This document shows positions 24,028 to 27,705 of a stretch of 64,000 nt of DNA, one piece after another. The notes under the pieces were generated by a model. It saw only the letters and a program-made list of their open reading frames with translations, ran no database searches and had not been told where the DNA came from. Origin of the DNA: Brevundimonas lutea (lineage in GTDB: Bacteria; Pseudomonadota; Alphaproteobacteria; Caulobacterales; Caulobacteraceae). Position 1 is the first letter of the stretch. Each line of letters opens with the position of its first letter. The position numbers and the translations under genes are program-made. The DNA lies in NCBI RefSeq assembly GCF_003704105.1, contig NZ_QUOQ01000003.1:496001-560000 (forward strand), read 5' to 3'.

Positions 24028-24456
24028 ATGTTCGACACCCTGTACTCGCAGATCGGCGGCCTGCTCATGGTCGGCGTCTGCGTCTTCGCCCTATGGCAGG
24101 GCGATCAACCCGAGCGGGTGGGTGCGGGGGCATACCTGCTAGCCTGGATGCTCAGTCTGGTCCTCCAGGACGATGTCCAGCTTAACGACTGGCAGCCGCT
24201 CCTCCTTATCCTGGATCTGGTTGTCCTCGGCGTTTTCGTCGGCCTCGGCTGGAAGTCCCGCAAGACCTGGCCGATCTGGGCGGCGGGTTTTCAGCTGATA
24301 GGCCTGATGAGCTACCTTGTGCCGCTGATTGATCGACGACTGCCGGCCTGGTCTTACATCACCGTGGTCAATATCGCCGCTTACGGCGTCCTGATCTCTC
24401 TGGCGGTCGGAACGTTCTGGGCGTGGCAGGAACGCCGCGCTCTCGAGATGAAATAG
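24028..24456 (+). CDS. Small integral membrane protein, unknown function
   Basis: The 142 residues hold about four hydrophobic helices (LLMVGVCVFALW, LLLILDLVVLGVFVGLGW, WAAGFQLIGLMSYLVPL, VVNIAAYGVLISLAVGTFWA). No catalytic motif is seen. The IS1595 element inserted immediately after its TAG stop; the TSD copy begins 2 bases past the stop. The coding sequence is intact, but any original 3' context was changed. Confidence 0.65.
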   Translation: MFDTLYSQIGGLLMVGVCVFALWQGDQPERVGAGAYLLAWMLSLVLQDDVQLNDWQPLLLILDLVVLGVFVGLGWKSRKTWPIWAAGFQLIGLMSYLVPLIDRRLPAWSYITVVNIAAYGVLISLAVGTFWAWQERRALEMK

Positions 24457-24457
24457 G

Positions 24458-24465
24458 TCGATATT
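24458..24465 (+). repeat. Target-site duplication, left copy
   Basis: TCGATATT directly precedes the left end of the IS1595 element and recurs at 27047-27054 after its right end. Eight bases is the usual duplication for IS1595-family transposition. Confidence 0.85.
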
Positions 24466-24488
24466 CCTAACTATGCACTTGACATACC
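24466..24488 (+). repeat. Left terminal inverted repeat of the IS1595 element
   Basis: It pairs with 27024-27046 at 22 of 23 positions. The inner part also forms a local hairpin (GCACTTG/CAAGTGC, 24475-24494) that contains a TTGACA hexamer, a possible -35 box. Confidence 0.85.
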
Positions 24489-24528
24489 AAGTGCGGGAGA
24501 TAGGAATATGGCCGACAGGCCGGCACAA

Positions 24529-25305
24529 TCATCTCAGAAATTTGGAAAGTTCCTGAATCGCGAAAGCGCAGTTCGTGCGAAGCGATTTAAGCGTTTCCAA
24601 TACCCCAGTGTCCCCAAGGGGGCCTTCACCGAACAATACCGTCAGGCCATCCTTGAGATCGCCTGTGTATATCAGTGGCCCGAGCTCGCTGCTCAGGAAT
24701 GTCGTTTTATTCGTGATGACGAAACGGGCAACGCCCTGTTCCGGGCCGGAGATTACACGATTCCCGCCCCCTCGGATGTCTCTGAAAACAATGGTTCGCT
24801 CGTTCGTCAGCGAGACACTTATCCTGGTCGGAAGAAGCAACTGGTGCTTATCCGTAATATCAAGTCGGTGAAGGTCGTAGAGGGCGAGTTTCCCGCCGGG
24901 AAAGGGCTCCAATTCACCGAAGATATAATCGAGCACCTTCCGGTTGGGTCGGTTGCATTCGGGCTGTCCGTTGACGGAGCCTTCCGCCGATGGCCGATCC
25001 CTGAAGAAGGGGAACTTAATCCGATCCGACCACGACCCGTTGTTGTCCTGGACCATCACCCAATAGGCGTGGTCCAGAGAGACGCGGAGATTGTGAACCG
25101 CATCACCGAGTATGAGCGCTGTGCGTTCCGGGAGAGGCAGCCCCAAGCGGGACTGCCTGAACTTCCCCGTCTTTGGGTCGAATTCACCCCGCATGGCTTT
25201 GAGGTTCGCCCGGATGTAAGCTGCAAAAGCCTCTTCAAGCTTGTCGATGTGATGGTCGGCCCGTTCTATTTTCAGAATGGGTCCGCGCATTCGGAGATCG
25301 CTCAT
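24529..25305 (-). CDS. IS passenger: hypothetical protein of unknown function
   Basis: The protein (258 residues from ATG 25305) is not a transposase. It contains LGDAVHNLRVSLDHAYWVMV, a helical motif I have seen in many uncharacterised bacterial proteins, and otherwise mixed alpha/beta sequence without signal peptide or clear catalytic residues. The frame is open to 25362, but residues before MSDLRMRGP look unstructured. The start ATG overlaps, on the opposite strand, the start of a 42-residue ORF (shared CATG). An overlapping plus-strand frame is treated as a shadow. Confidence 0.65.
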   Translation of the reverse strand: MSDLRMRGPILKIERADHHIDKLEEAFAAYIRANLKAMRGEFDPKTGKFRQSRLGLPLPERTALILGDAVHNLRVSLDHAYWVMVQDNNGSWSDRIKFPFFRDRPSAEGSVNGQPECNRPNRKVLDYIFGELEPFPGGKLALYDLHRLDITDKHQLLLPTRISVSLTNERTIVFRDIRGGGNRVISGPEQGVARFVITNKTTFLSSELGPLIYTGDLKDGLTVLFGEGPLGDTGVLETLKSLRTNCAFAIQELSKFLR

Positions 25306-25432
25306 GGTCGATGATCCCACAGCCGAGCGCCGCGACGAGGTGGTGAAGCGGATGCTCGCCACCTCGCCAAAGCCGAAGAAGGCGAAAGACGAGAAAGGGC
25401 GCGAGCCGAAGCCCGCGCTGAAGGTGAAGTGA
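25304..25432 (+). CDS. IS passenger: tiny basic protein, 42 residues
   Basis: The product starts MVDDPTAERRDEVVKRMLAT and ends in a Lys/Pro-rich tail. GGAG lies 7 bases before the ATG, a good ribosome site. Its ATG shares the CATG with the divergent hypothetical gene, so the two cannot be initiated independently without overlap. Short proteins with RDEVV-RML followed by a basic tail are familiar from alphaproteobacterial accessory DNA, a recollection rather than a search result. Confidence 0.4.
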   Translation: MVDDPTAERRDEVVKRMLATSPKPKKAKDEKGREPKPALKVK

Positions 25433-25504
25433 TGGCTCGGTTCCGTGCGCGCCTCGCTCTGTGGTTCGCATATCGGATTTGCCGGACCCCTGTAGATTTG
25501 AGGT

Positions 25505-25822
25505 CTAGGTGGTCCGACGACCCATCAAAAAGCTGAAATCGCCGTCTCTCAGCTTTCCTTTCACGGCGTGACCGCGCTTCGTTGAGATGTTGACGACCAG
25601 CAAGAGGTCTTGCGTGGCATCGAAGTCGGGCGTGGCCGATACGATCGCGGCCGCGATATCGGAGGACGTGCTGTCTGACTCGATCAGATAGAGCGATGTC
25701 GCTTCGCTCCAGTATTTCGACTTCGACTGCGCCACGATAGCGGCAGTGAGGTCTGCGTAGCAGCGGTCATATCGGGCGTCGGTATCGTAGTCGATCCGGT
25801 AGGCAACGACGAAGATGGACAT
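25505..25822 (-). CDS. IS passenger: Cas2/VapD/SinR-like small protein
   Basis: The 105-residue protein reads as a single ferredoxin-like beta-alpha-beta-beta-alpha-beta domain: MSIFVVAYRIDYD (strand 1 with Asp residues), a helix around CYADLTAAIVA, ATSLYLIESDS (strand), SSDIAAAIVSAT (helix) and DLLLVVNIST (strand). This resembles the SinR-family and Cas2/VapD fold group. Whether it has RNase activity is unknown. No Cas1 or repeat array is near, so it is not a CRISPR component. A palindrome, ATAAGG-N4-CCTTAT, immediately precedes the start and may be an operator. Confidence 0.6.
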   Translation of the reverse strand: MSIFVVAYRIDYDTDARYDRCYADLTAAIVAQSKSKYWSEATSLYLIESDSTSSDIAAAIVSATPDFDATQDLLLVVNISTKRGHAVKGKLRDGDFSFLMGRRTT

Positions 25823-25932
25823 ATAAGGCGTTCCTTATGGAAGGCCGTAAGGCGTTGACCGAATCCGTCACTCCGAGCATAAGGGAGTTGTCTTTGACGA
25901 CTGCGGCCGCTGCCCTACAGCGGTTGCGAAGA

Positions 25933-25963
25933 AGCCCGGTCAGCGGTTGCACGCTGCCGGGCT
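25933..25963 (-). terminator. Stem-loop terminator after the transposase
   Basis: Arms AGCCCGG-CAGCG and CGCTG-CCGGGCT close a 6-base loop, with one bulged base. On the minus strand the stem is followed by TCTTCGC; on the plus strand by TTGCCCTT. It lies 95 bases beyond the transposase stop. Confidence 0.6.
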
Positions 25964-26057
25964 TTGCCCTTCTAGGGCGATTCTCAACCTTTCGGAAACC
26001 CTTGTTTCTTGCGCTTTCGCGCGAGCCTCGCAGCGGCGAACTTAAACGAAGGCTTCG

Positions 26058-26999
26058 TTAGTCCGCCGATATGTCAGGCGCTTCCCGACCGTGCCGACGA
26101 GGGCCGGTGCGCATGGCGTCTGAGAAGCCCAGCTTGGCGCGGGTGTTGTGGCGGAAGCCGAACTCGGTGACATAGCGGTTCAGGTGCTTCTCGGCGCAGT
26201 GCTGATAGACGCCGCGCATCCCCTTCTTGAACACGCCGAAGAAGCCTTCCGCGCTGTTCGTGTTCACGTCGCCCCGGGCGTATTCGCCAGCGGTGTGACG
26301 GACGGTTTCATGGGCGGCGAACACATCGGCCGCGCCGACATAGAGGCGGCTTTCGTCGGTGTGGAGGCGCGAGGCGGCGTCCACGTTCTCTAAGACGAGG
26401 CGCGAGACAGTGGCCTTGTCCGCCACGGCGACGTGAAAGACCTTGGCGCGGCCACCGCGCTCGACCAGGGCGACCACGGGGCGGCTGTTGCGACGCTTGG
26501 GATTGCCCTTGAGGAAGGGCTGACCCGACGTGCGAAGGGTCGGGGAGACAGCGGGCTTGCCGTAGTAGGTCTCGTCAGCTTCCACCACCTTACCCTCGCC
26601 GCCTAGCGGGGCGTTGTCGGTGTCGATCATGGCTTCACGGATACGGTGCGCCATGAACCAAGCGGTGCGGTAGGAGCCGAGGCCGAGTTCGCGCTGGAGC
26701 TGGAGGGCGCTGATACCCTTCTTGCTGGCACACATCAGATGGGTGGCCAGCAGCCACTTGTTCAGGGGAACCTTGCTGTCCTCATAGACGGTGCCGATGG
26801 TCGCGGTGAACGGCTTCTCACAAGCCTTGCACTTGTAGAGACCGGGGCGGTGCGACTTGCCCTTTAGCAGGGTGGACGCACCGTCACCGACCACGCCGCA
26901 ATGCGGGCACACCCGACCATCGGGCCAACGCAGCTTCTCAAAGTGAGCGCGGGCCTTGTCGGCGTCGTGGAAGATCGGATCGGAAAGAGCGGCGGTCAT
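26058..26999 (-). CDS. IS1595-family (ISXO2-like) transposase
   Basis: The 313-residue protein catalyses movement of the element. An N-terminal zinc ribbon is visible (CPHCG and CKACEKPF, about residues 32-62). The helix region KWLLATHLMCASKKGISALQ follows, then the catalytic core with acidic residues in VVEADETYYGK and LHTDESRLY and the family-typical NSAEGFFGVFKKG (Asn/Glu). The reading frame is complete, so the copy may be active. ATG 26999 lies 25 bases inside the right inverted repeat. Confidence 0.92.
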   Translation of the reverse strand: MTAALSDPIFHDADKARAHFEKLRWPDGRVCPHCGVVGDGASTLLKGKSHRPGLYKCKACEKPFTATIGTVYEDSKVPLNKWLLATHLMCASKKGISALQLQRELGLGSYRTAWFMAHRIREAMIDTDNAPLGGEGKVVEADETYYGKPAVSPTLRTSGQPFLKGNPKRRNSRPVVALVERGGRAKVFHVAVADKATVSRLVLENVDAASRLHTDESRLYVGAADVFAAHETVRHTAGEYARGDVNTNSAEGFFGVFKKGMRGVYQHCAEKHLNRYVTEFGFRHNTRAKLGFSDAMRTGPRRHGREAPDISAD

Positions 27000-27023
27000 G
27001 CATCTTGATACCGAATCCCATCC

Positions 27024-27046
27024 GGTATGTAAAGTGCATAGTTAGG
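27024..27046 (-). repeat. Right terminal inverted repeat of the IS1595 element
   Basis: Complementary to 24466-24488 with a single mismatch. It ends in TTAGG, next to the right copy of the 8-base target duplication. Confidence 0.85.
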
Positions 27047-27054
27047 TCGATATT
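27047..27054 (+). repeat. Target-site duplication, right copy
   Basis: TCGATATT, identical to 24458-24465. The reconstructed empty site reads TAGG-TCGATATT-CCTA, an imperfect palindrome about 25 bases upstream of the S24 repressor start. Confidence 0.85.
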
Positions 27055-27084
27055 CCTATCCGTTGCCGTTAGTCTCAGCGAATC

Positions 27085-27705
27085 ATGCCGCTGAGCCACA
27101 CCGAGATCTGGACTGCCCTGGACGCCCTCGCGGAGCGGCGGGGCCTGTCGGCGTCGGGACTGGCCAAGGCTGCGGGGCTGGATGCGACCAGCTTCAATCC
27201 CTCCAAACGCGGCAATGAAGGCCGTCCTCGGTGGCCCTCGACCGAAAGCCTGATGCGGGTGCTGCAGGCGACCGGCCTGTCGCTGGGCGAGTTCGCCGGC
27301 CTGGCCGGAGATGCGCCGACGCCCGACAACAGCATCCCCCTTCTCGGCATGGCGCGGGCCGGGGCCGGCGGCGCCTTCGATCCGCAAGGGTATGGGACCG
27401 AAACCGACCGGACCGATCTGCCGGTCGCCACCCCGACCATGATCTCGATCCGGGTTACCGGCGACTCCATGTCGCCGCTGTATCGCGAGGGCGACCGGGT
27501 GGTGGTGGACCGAGCCGTCACGGATGTGCGCAAGGGCGACCGCGTGGTCGTTCAGACGACCGACGGCGAGGTCATGGTCAAGGAGTATGCGGGCGGCGGC
27601 TCGGCGCGGGCGCATCTGAACTCGCTGAACCCCGATCACCCGCCGCGCGTCCTGGCGCGGCGCGACATCGACTGGATGTCGCGGGTGCTGTGGGTGTCCC
27701 AATAG
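27085..27705 (+). CDS. CI/LexA-like S24-family repressor with N-terminal helix-turn-helix
   Basis: The 206-residue protein has an XRE-like DNA-binding region (LSASGLAKAAGLDATSFNPS, about residues 21-40) and a C-terminal S24 peptidase fold. Catalytic Ser128 lies in TGDSMSPLYREGD and Lys166 in VMVKEY. A plausible Ala92-Gly93 self-cleavage bond lies in ARAGAGG; the spacing resembles LexA. It is probably a damage- or stress-responsive repressor. The IS1595 element now lies just 38 bases upstream of its start and may have replaced its promoter or operator. Confidence 0.87.
   Translation: MPLSHTEIWTALDALAERRGLSASGLAKAAGLDATSFNPSKRGNEGRPRWPSTESLMRVLQATGLSLGEFAGLAGDAPTPDNSIPLLGMARAGAGGAFDPQGYGTETDRTDLPVATPTMISIRVTGDSMSPLYREGDRVVVDRAVTDVRKGDRVVVQTTDGEVMVKEYAGGGSARAHLNSLNPDHPPRVLARRDIDWMSRVLWVSQ

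Follow-up and report, generated by a model that had tools for sequence, protein, structure and literature searches.

The element and the question of its address

Why does a transposon in the genome of Brevundimonas lutea lie within a palindrome just upstream of a gene for a LexA-like repressor, and how does that palindrome come to stand whole on both of its sides? The element occupies positions 24466-27046 (2581 bp) of a stretch of 64,000 nucleotides (hereafter the window; contig NZ_QUOQ01000003.1, positions 496,001 to 560,000). With a probability of about 0.7, we consider it an IS1595-type passenger transposon whose transposase likely reads GG-N8-CC, the predicted operator of the repressor RogA, and whose target palindrome has here been rebuilt at both junctions. 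The targeting of regulatory palindromes is well supported by the sequence comparisons that follow; a coupling to RogA and travel in the particles of gene transfer agents (GTAs) are predictions. The features that define the insertion are these:

24454..24469, no strand: left junction palindrome TAGG-TCGATATT-CCTA, host GG plus 8-bp duplication plus element CC, forming a 16-bp repeat; GG-N8-CC rebuilt
24458..24465, no strand: target-site duplication, left copy, TCGATATT
24466..24488, plus strand: terminal inverted repeat, cargo side, 22/23 bases matching
26058..26999, minus strand: IS1595-family transposase, 313 aa (PF12762, NF033547)
27024..27046, minus strand: terminal inverted repeat, transposase side
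27043..27058, no strand: right junction palindrome TAGG-TCGATATT-CCTA, upstream of the S24 gene; GG-N8-CC rebuilt
27047..27054, no strand: target-site duplication, right copy
27085..27705, plus strand: host S24/LexA-like repressor gene, probable rogA (PF00717, E 6.2e-19; its genome encodes two S24 proteins)

The terminal inverted repeats, CCTAACTATGCACTTGACATACC and CCTAACTATGCACTTTACATACC, are bounded by an exact 8-bp duplication, the size characteristic of the IS1595 family, and the intact transposase combines a zinc ribbon (PF12760) with an ISXO2-type DDE domain (PF12762, E 1.6e-29; NF033547, E 5.4e-55). The element hence shows the IS1595-family features that were tested, namely a DDE transposase with zinc ribbon, inverted ends and an 8-bp duplication. 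A preliminary description of this DNA had already recognized 23-bp repeats with one mismatch, an exact duplication and an intact transposase of this type, and all three stand. A single copy of the element was found in a search of its own genome.

The empty site is a palindrome, GG-N8-CC, located about 40 bp upstream of the S24/LexA-like gene. The 8 duplicated bases are exactly its core, and a 16-bp direct repeat, TAGGTCGATATTCCTA, spans each junction of the element. Because both ends of most elements of this kind start with CC, host GG meets element CC on one side, and the reverse on the other, so that GG-N8-CC is restored on each. Among the 39 elements at GTA-type genes (see below), both junctions rebuild the palindrome in 34 and one junction does so in 3. 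Across the window, AGG-N8-CCT with an AT-rich core was found at the two junctions only.

A recurrent target among related elements

Element DNA is matched somewhere in 56 of 200 relative genomes, in many over short stretches only, and the first ten elements examined that possess two ends and an 8-bp duplication, including that of the window, all lie in GG-N8-CC. The transposase alignment retained the best 80 of 347 confirmed relatives, of which 67 have an exact 8-bp duplication and ends that match at 15 or more of 22 bases (13 were left out). These 67, the window element and 10 others make up a set of 78 non-redundant elements, from which eight duplicates of existing records were dropped and in which near-identical pairs were kept; two single-ended copies were excluded, one in G119 (at the S24 site, judging by its left neighbour) and one in G060 (decayed, in another place). 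Scanning 398 genomes of the order with the end pattern gave matches in only 12 of them, and the transposase search proved more useful.

The target is GG-N8-CC in 55 of the 78 elements, with a symmetrised consensus of AGG-AWWATWWT-CCT in which the GG and CC on either side follow from how the class is defined. Its use follows the ends of the element, at 41 of 45 with CC at both ends, 5 of 6 with CC at one and 9 of 27 with CC at neither; the last category contains 19 elements with GG at both ends, of which 3 use it. One well-supported group of 12 elements has other targets throughout, and the target label clusters on the transposase tree (11 changes vs a shuffled mean of 20, with 0 of 500 shuffles as low).

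The preliminary description had proposed that the element may prefer targets resembling its own termini or a protein-binding palindrome. The first proposal holds in part: resemblance accompanies target use, as the difference between CC/CC and GG/GG elements attests, but a CC end is not required, because a third of the elements lacking one (9/27) still insert in GG-N8-CC. Those nine elements rule out pure end mimicry as the sole rule, and the concentration of 39 of the 55 GG-N8-CC insertions at three gene types, described below, also speaks against it. That resemblance to the element's ends is all that governs target choice is therefore quite unlikely. Three elements from the genus of the window (L043, L045 and L046) are GG-ended, carry the same family of small open reading frame (ORF) as the window element and are inserted at unrelated sites; what reads the target could emerge from a comparison between their transposases and those of the GG-N8-CC class.

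Insertion near probable gene transfer agent genes

Most GG-N8-CC elements share a genomic address. Thirty-nine of the 55 lie near rogA-like (10), gafY-like (19) or terminase (10) genes, whereas this is true of no element among the other 23 (p 2.2e-9 by Fisher's test, without correction for kinship). All ten insertions at S24 (rogA-like) genes are upstream, 33-137 bp from the start, as are all 19 at gafY-like genes, which encode a DnaA-type protein (58-227 bp from the start; L018 among them). In the remaining ten, the gene for the terminase large subunit starts within 1.2 kb; these neighbours were grouped by BLAST, and L160, which has a similar flank, was left out of the count.

Such a distribution might in principle reflect a few old insertions passed down with their host genes. 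The site labels do cluster on the transposase tree (0/200 shuffles as low), and near-identical pairs are still in the set. The same tree, however, needs 18 between-site changes, with at least 4, 6 and 5 for the individual sites on strong branches, and the insertions have therefore been repeated. Furthermore, the transposase end faces the gene in 4 of 10 rogA-like and 10 of 19 gafY-like insertions (counted by hand), so that both orientations occur, orthologous sites carry different duplicated bases, and the site is empty in most relatives within the genus. Given the 18 changes, the two orientations and the differing duplications, common descent alone is judged very unlikely.

The palindrome is also present where the element is absent. 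Of the 131 genomes of the genus, 127 have DNA that matches the host gene of the S24 locus, and the element lies within a few dozen bases 5' of the S24 start in the window and in G077, G066, G071 and G061. At 29 other S24 loci, from other genomes of the genus, [AG]GG-N8-CC[TC] stands at -40 to -75 in 27; the looser rule GG-N8-CC finds it in 28 of 29, over a background of 0.066 per 110 bp, and the additional locus (L056), whose match adjoins the start, is probably a chance match. The comparison of empty sites that the preliminary description had called for thus reveals a conserved palindrome, and the counter-example it had named, passengers at this locus in relatives devoid of transposase and repeats, was not seen: no passenger lies in the 110 bp upstream of the 29 repressor genes (46 bp in one).

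The window's own genome was scanned with TAGGNNNATATTCCTA, allowing up to two mismatches and with a backward control. The motif is exact at the two junctions, occurs at one intergenic place with one mismatch and at three with two. The one-mismatch place lies 66 bp upstream of a gene with a DnaA-type helix-turn-helix (HTH), followed by a DUF6456-type frame. Among DnaA-type HTH (gafY-like) loci of the genus, taken as the best 30 of 60 genomes matched, 29 contain, in the 160 bp upstream, a GG-N8-CC whose core is AT-rich, where 0.015 would be expected per stretch. The element sits at this site in two of the 30 loci (L256 and L258), and the palindrome is found in 27 of the 28 that are element-free. 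The second proposal of the preliminary description, a protein-binding palindrome, hence agrees with conservation in element-free genomes and with recurrence at rogA-, gafY- and terminase-type genes; binding itself is a prediction.

Two further observations concern the insertion sites. In Bosea, three related elements (L162, L165 and L171) are inserted in GG-N8-CC next to the same lyase-like gene, which makes this another recurrent address. In L032 and L035 (G117 and G027) the element separates the gafY-like gene from a ctrA-like response-regulator gene, whose start is 236-238 bp away.

A predicted RogA operator

RogA of Caulobacter (CCNA_00080) is a LexA-like repressor of 213 residues that contains an S24 domain (Gozzi 2022; PMC9632790). 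According to the available part of that study, it binds the gafYZ promoter at GGAA-N4-TTCC, and the only other peak in chromatin immunoprecipitation (ChIP) is at CCNA_02002. It represses gafYZ, whose products activate the GTA cluster (Tran and Le 2024; PMC11150451, available in part), and LypABC is the subject of a further report (PMC13236601, also available in part). The published RogA site has the same GG-8-CC spacing as the element target. In site A (GGTCGATATTCC) and in the gafY-like site (GGAATATAATCC) the GG-N8-CC spacing likewise fits, and the half-sites match partly.

The window S24 protein has 206 aa, with PF00717 above cut-off and an N-terminal HTH_31 below its cut-off. Its genome encodes two S24 proteins, of which the other reads as LexA. 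The window gene is thus probably rogA, and the palindrome before it a putative RogA operator. The same genome holds a gafY/gafZ-like pair (PF08299, 2.5e-05; PF20057, 4.2e-05; both below the Pfam cut-off), whose gafY-like site is empty, and one relative (L037) scores above cut-off for PF08299. It also holds a GTA-like cluster (L230) which, read from its genes alone, has Pfam matches for terminase, portal, capsid, connector, baseplate hub and NlpC/P60, with tape-measure below cut-off. GTAs have a characteristic gene order, and L230 follows it from terminase, portal, capsid and connector to tail and NlpC/P60.

If the palindrome is an operator, an operator-bound RogA or another palindrome binder might recruit the transposase. 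The targets are indeed palindromes conserved in empty sites and matching the published RogA spacing. On the other hand, GG-N8-CC at other genes is used as well, Caulobacter RogA was not observed at the GTA promoter in the available part of PMC9632790, and the A/T beside the flanking GG and CC is also strong, as expected from direct reading by the transposase. Guidance by a bound protein is hence improbable.

Direct reading need imply no functional tie. A transposase favouring AT-rich AGG-N8-CCT palindromes as such would insert where they are best conserved, and the genes of GTA control may simply carry the best conserved ones. The 16 of 55 GG-N8-CC insertions at other genes, such as the three Bosea loci, fit this explanation, while the gathering of 39 at three types of gene that belong to one circuit, and the fact that both palindromes are rebuilt in 34 of these 39, which suggests a fit to a working operator, count against it. 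We regard it as a serious contender, at somewhat less than even odds.

Several observations weigh against a transposase addressed to RogA operators. Besides those 16 insertions at other genes, neither junction is rebuilt in 2 of 39 elements, and Pfam was applied to one of the ten terminase genes. Caulobacter RogA was not found at the GTA promoter and is unreported at its own gene, CCNA_00080, in the available part of PMC9632790; with gafYZ and CCNA_02002 as its only observed sites, the S24 and terminase sites may be bound by something other than RogA. The window site fits one half of GGAA-N4-TTCC only (GGTC...TTCC), and the case for orthology between the window gene and rogA is built on the domain, the number of S24 proteins in the genome and the motif. 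Lastly, at two mismatches the motif is about as frequent in its own genome as the backward control (7 rows vs 5), and the two-mismatch places carry little meaning since that control gave five rows.

A predicted promoter with its -35 box inside the terminal repeat

The rebuilt right-hand palindrome would lie directly upstream of a predicted transposase promoter:

27005..27010, minus strand: predicted transposase -10, TATCAA
27028..27033, minus strand: predicted transposase -35, TTTACA, within the terminal repeat

A box resembling TTGACA (at 5 or 6 of 6 positions) occurs in the transposase-side end of all 78 elements and is exact in 48, followed by a -10-like hexamer (at least 4 of 6) in 45 of 78, vs 16% in shuffles. 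At the cargo-side end such a box is found in 62 of 78 and is exact in 13. Being in the terminal repeat, the -35-like box may instead be conserved for transposase binding.

Passenger genes

The remaining features of the element and its left flank are as follows:

24028..24456, plus strand: host gene on the element's other side, 142 aa; same neighbour at the G077, G066, G071 and G119 insertions
24514..24523, plus strand: subterminal motif GACAGGCCGG, recurring in related elements
24529..25305, minus strand: passenger gene, 258 aa, likely HEPN-fold
25304..25432, plus strand: passenger ORF, 42 aa, basic; its start codon and the start codon of the 258-aa gene overlap within a single CATG
25505..25822, minus strand: passenger ORF, 105 aa, family unknown; relatives in the G071 (54%) and G027 (36%) elements; phrog_18921, E 7.6e-10

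Two of the three passengers named in the preliminary description are borne out. The 258-aa hypothetical gene has 49 protein matches and is thus a real gene, and the 42-residue ORF, which begins head to head with it, belongs to a conserved family present in 67 of the 78 elements, 13 of which match by construction, the model having been derived from them. In 131 genomes of the genus this family gave 15 strong matches, 14 of which adjoin an IS1595 transposase, and the recurrence of ends together with passengers that the preliminary description had wished to see is therefore found; two weak matches with E 0.008 and 0.0099, one of them interrupted by a stop, were not counted. One strong match, L145 (G208), shows no transposase within the 2.6 kb read, and represents a short contig or a broken element.

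The 258-aa product is likely a HEPN-fold protein. RX4-6H is the HEPN catalytic motif, and R[ND]x[hydrophobic]xH occurs in 26 of 40 partner proteins vs 0.69 expected. The window protein carries RVSLDH, yet the H is not conserved across its family, and Foldseek with a model of the 258-aa protein returned no match below E 0.001.

The third passenger, the 105-aa ORF, has relatives in two other elements and falls in a PHROG of unknown function. Its earlier label as a Cas2/SinR-like gene is not supported, with no profile match in Pfam, NCBIfam or PADLOC, and its single-sequence model (predicted local distance difference test, pLDDT, 46) is too poor for fold comparison. A protein search returned the query itself as the only match (1 among 5 candidates), and a first genome scan with this ORF gave 52 pattern matches, 0 of them confirmed. 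In L031 and L033 (the G077 and G066 elements) another small passenger ORF, 73% identical between the two, takes the place of the 105-aa ORF. Some elements have an extra, inward-reading small ORF of about 72-79 aa at the cargo-side end (L032:3310-3549, L033, L034), with weak mutual similarity. The motif GACAGGCCGG near that end is exact in 8 of 13 elements and has one mismatch in 2 (read by eye); it is perhaps a DNA signal, because the reading frame differs in some elements.

Comparison with known systems

The closest known elements are the IS1595-family transporter insertion sequences (ISs), for which Siguier 2009 is cited. IS1595 elements with passengers are already known (PMC3129680, PMC5704250), and ISs carrying passenger genes unrelated to transposition are termed transporter ISs (PMC3129680; both papers available in part). 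The window element is one of these, with such genes lying between its ends and recurring with them. Like MTnSag1 and tISCpe8, as given in the accessible part of PMC5704250, it has an IS1595 DDE transposase, inverted ends (about 25 bp in those elements), a target duplication and passengers. Unlike them, it carries a HEPN-like and a small protein in place of cargo such as lincomycin resistance, and its target is a putative regulatory palindrome at GTA-type genes, rebuilt at both ends. The RogA-GafYZ system of Caulobacter shares with this genome the LexA-like S24 repressor, a predicted pair of DnaA-type HTH and DUF6456-type proteins and the GG-8-CC spacing of the palindromes; it differs in that the accessible text of PMC9632790 and PMC11150451 describes no transposon at the promoters and reports no RogA peak at the S24 promoter site.

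Some site-specific transposons, such as Tn7 at attTn7, use one conserved chromosomal address where they do little harm. The GG-N8-CC elements resemble Tn7 in having a conserved and presumably low-harm address. Tn7 inserts downstream of a housekeeping gene, whereas these elements use a single IS1595-type DDE transposase and insert, in both orientations, into an operator-like palindrome upstream of regulators.

A possible life cycle and its meaning

Taken with the preferred reading, these observations suggest how such an element might live. The transposase would pick RogA-type operators by their sequence and leave them working. Because RogA would still bind the rebuilt sites, the host gene would stay regulated and the insertion would be cheap. 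The predicted transposase promoter, with its -35 in the terminal repeat, would come to lie just inside the RogA site, and transposition could for that reason be tied to the GTA switch, by repression or by activation. More speculatively, an element of 2-3 kb might be packaged in GTA particles and reach related cells with the same sites, and the HEPN-like protein and its small partner might form an addiction or defence pair. The full picture, that of an alphaproteobacterial transposon lineage addressed to the control points of GTAs, using RogA as its transposition switch through rebuilt operators, hitchhiking in GTA particles and held in place by an exchangeable HEPN and small-protein pair, is tentative and on balance rather unlikely. 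Among the papers listed, we found none that links IS1595 elements with GTAs, HEPN proteins or operator-type targets, the available part of PMC9208149 included, in a search to which most subscription journals were closed.

The transposase family is ordinary; the address is extraordinary. If the proposed address is correct, mobile elements follow a domesticated system of DNA transfer and may even exploit it, and ends that rebuild a host operator would combine a harmless insertion with a borrowed regulator. The small protein that these elements have in common, with HEPN-like partners that keep changing, forms another puzzling module. GG-N8-CC marks candidate RogA-type sites across many genomes, and the existence of relatives with and without the element makes the question directly testable.

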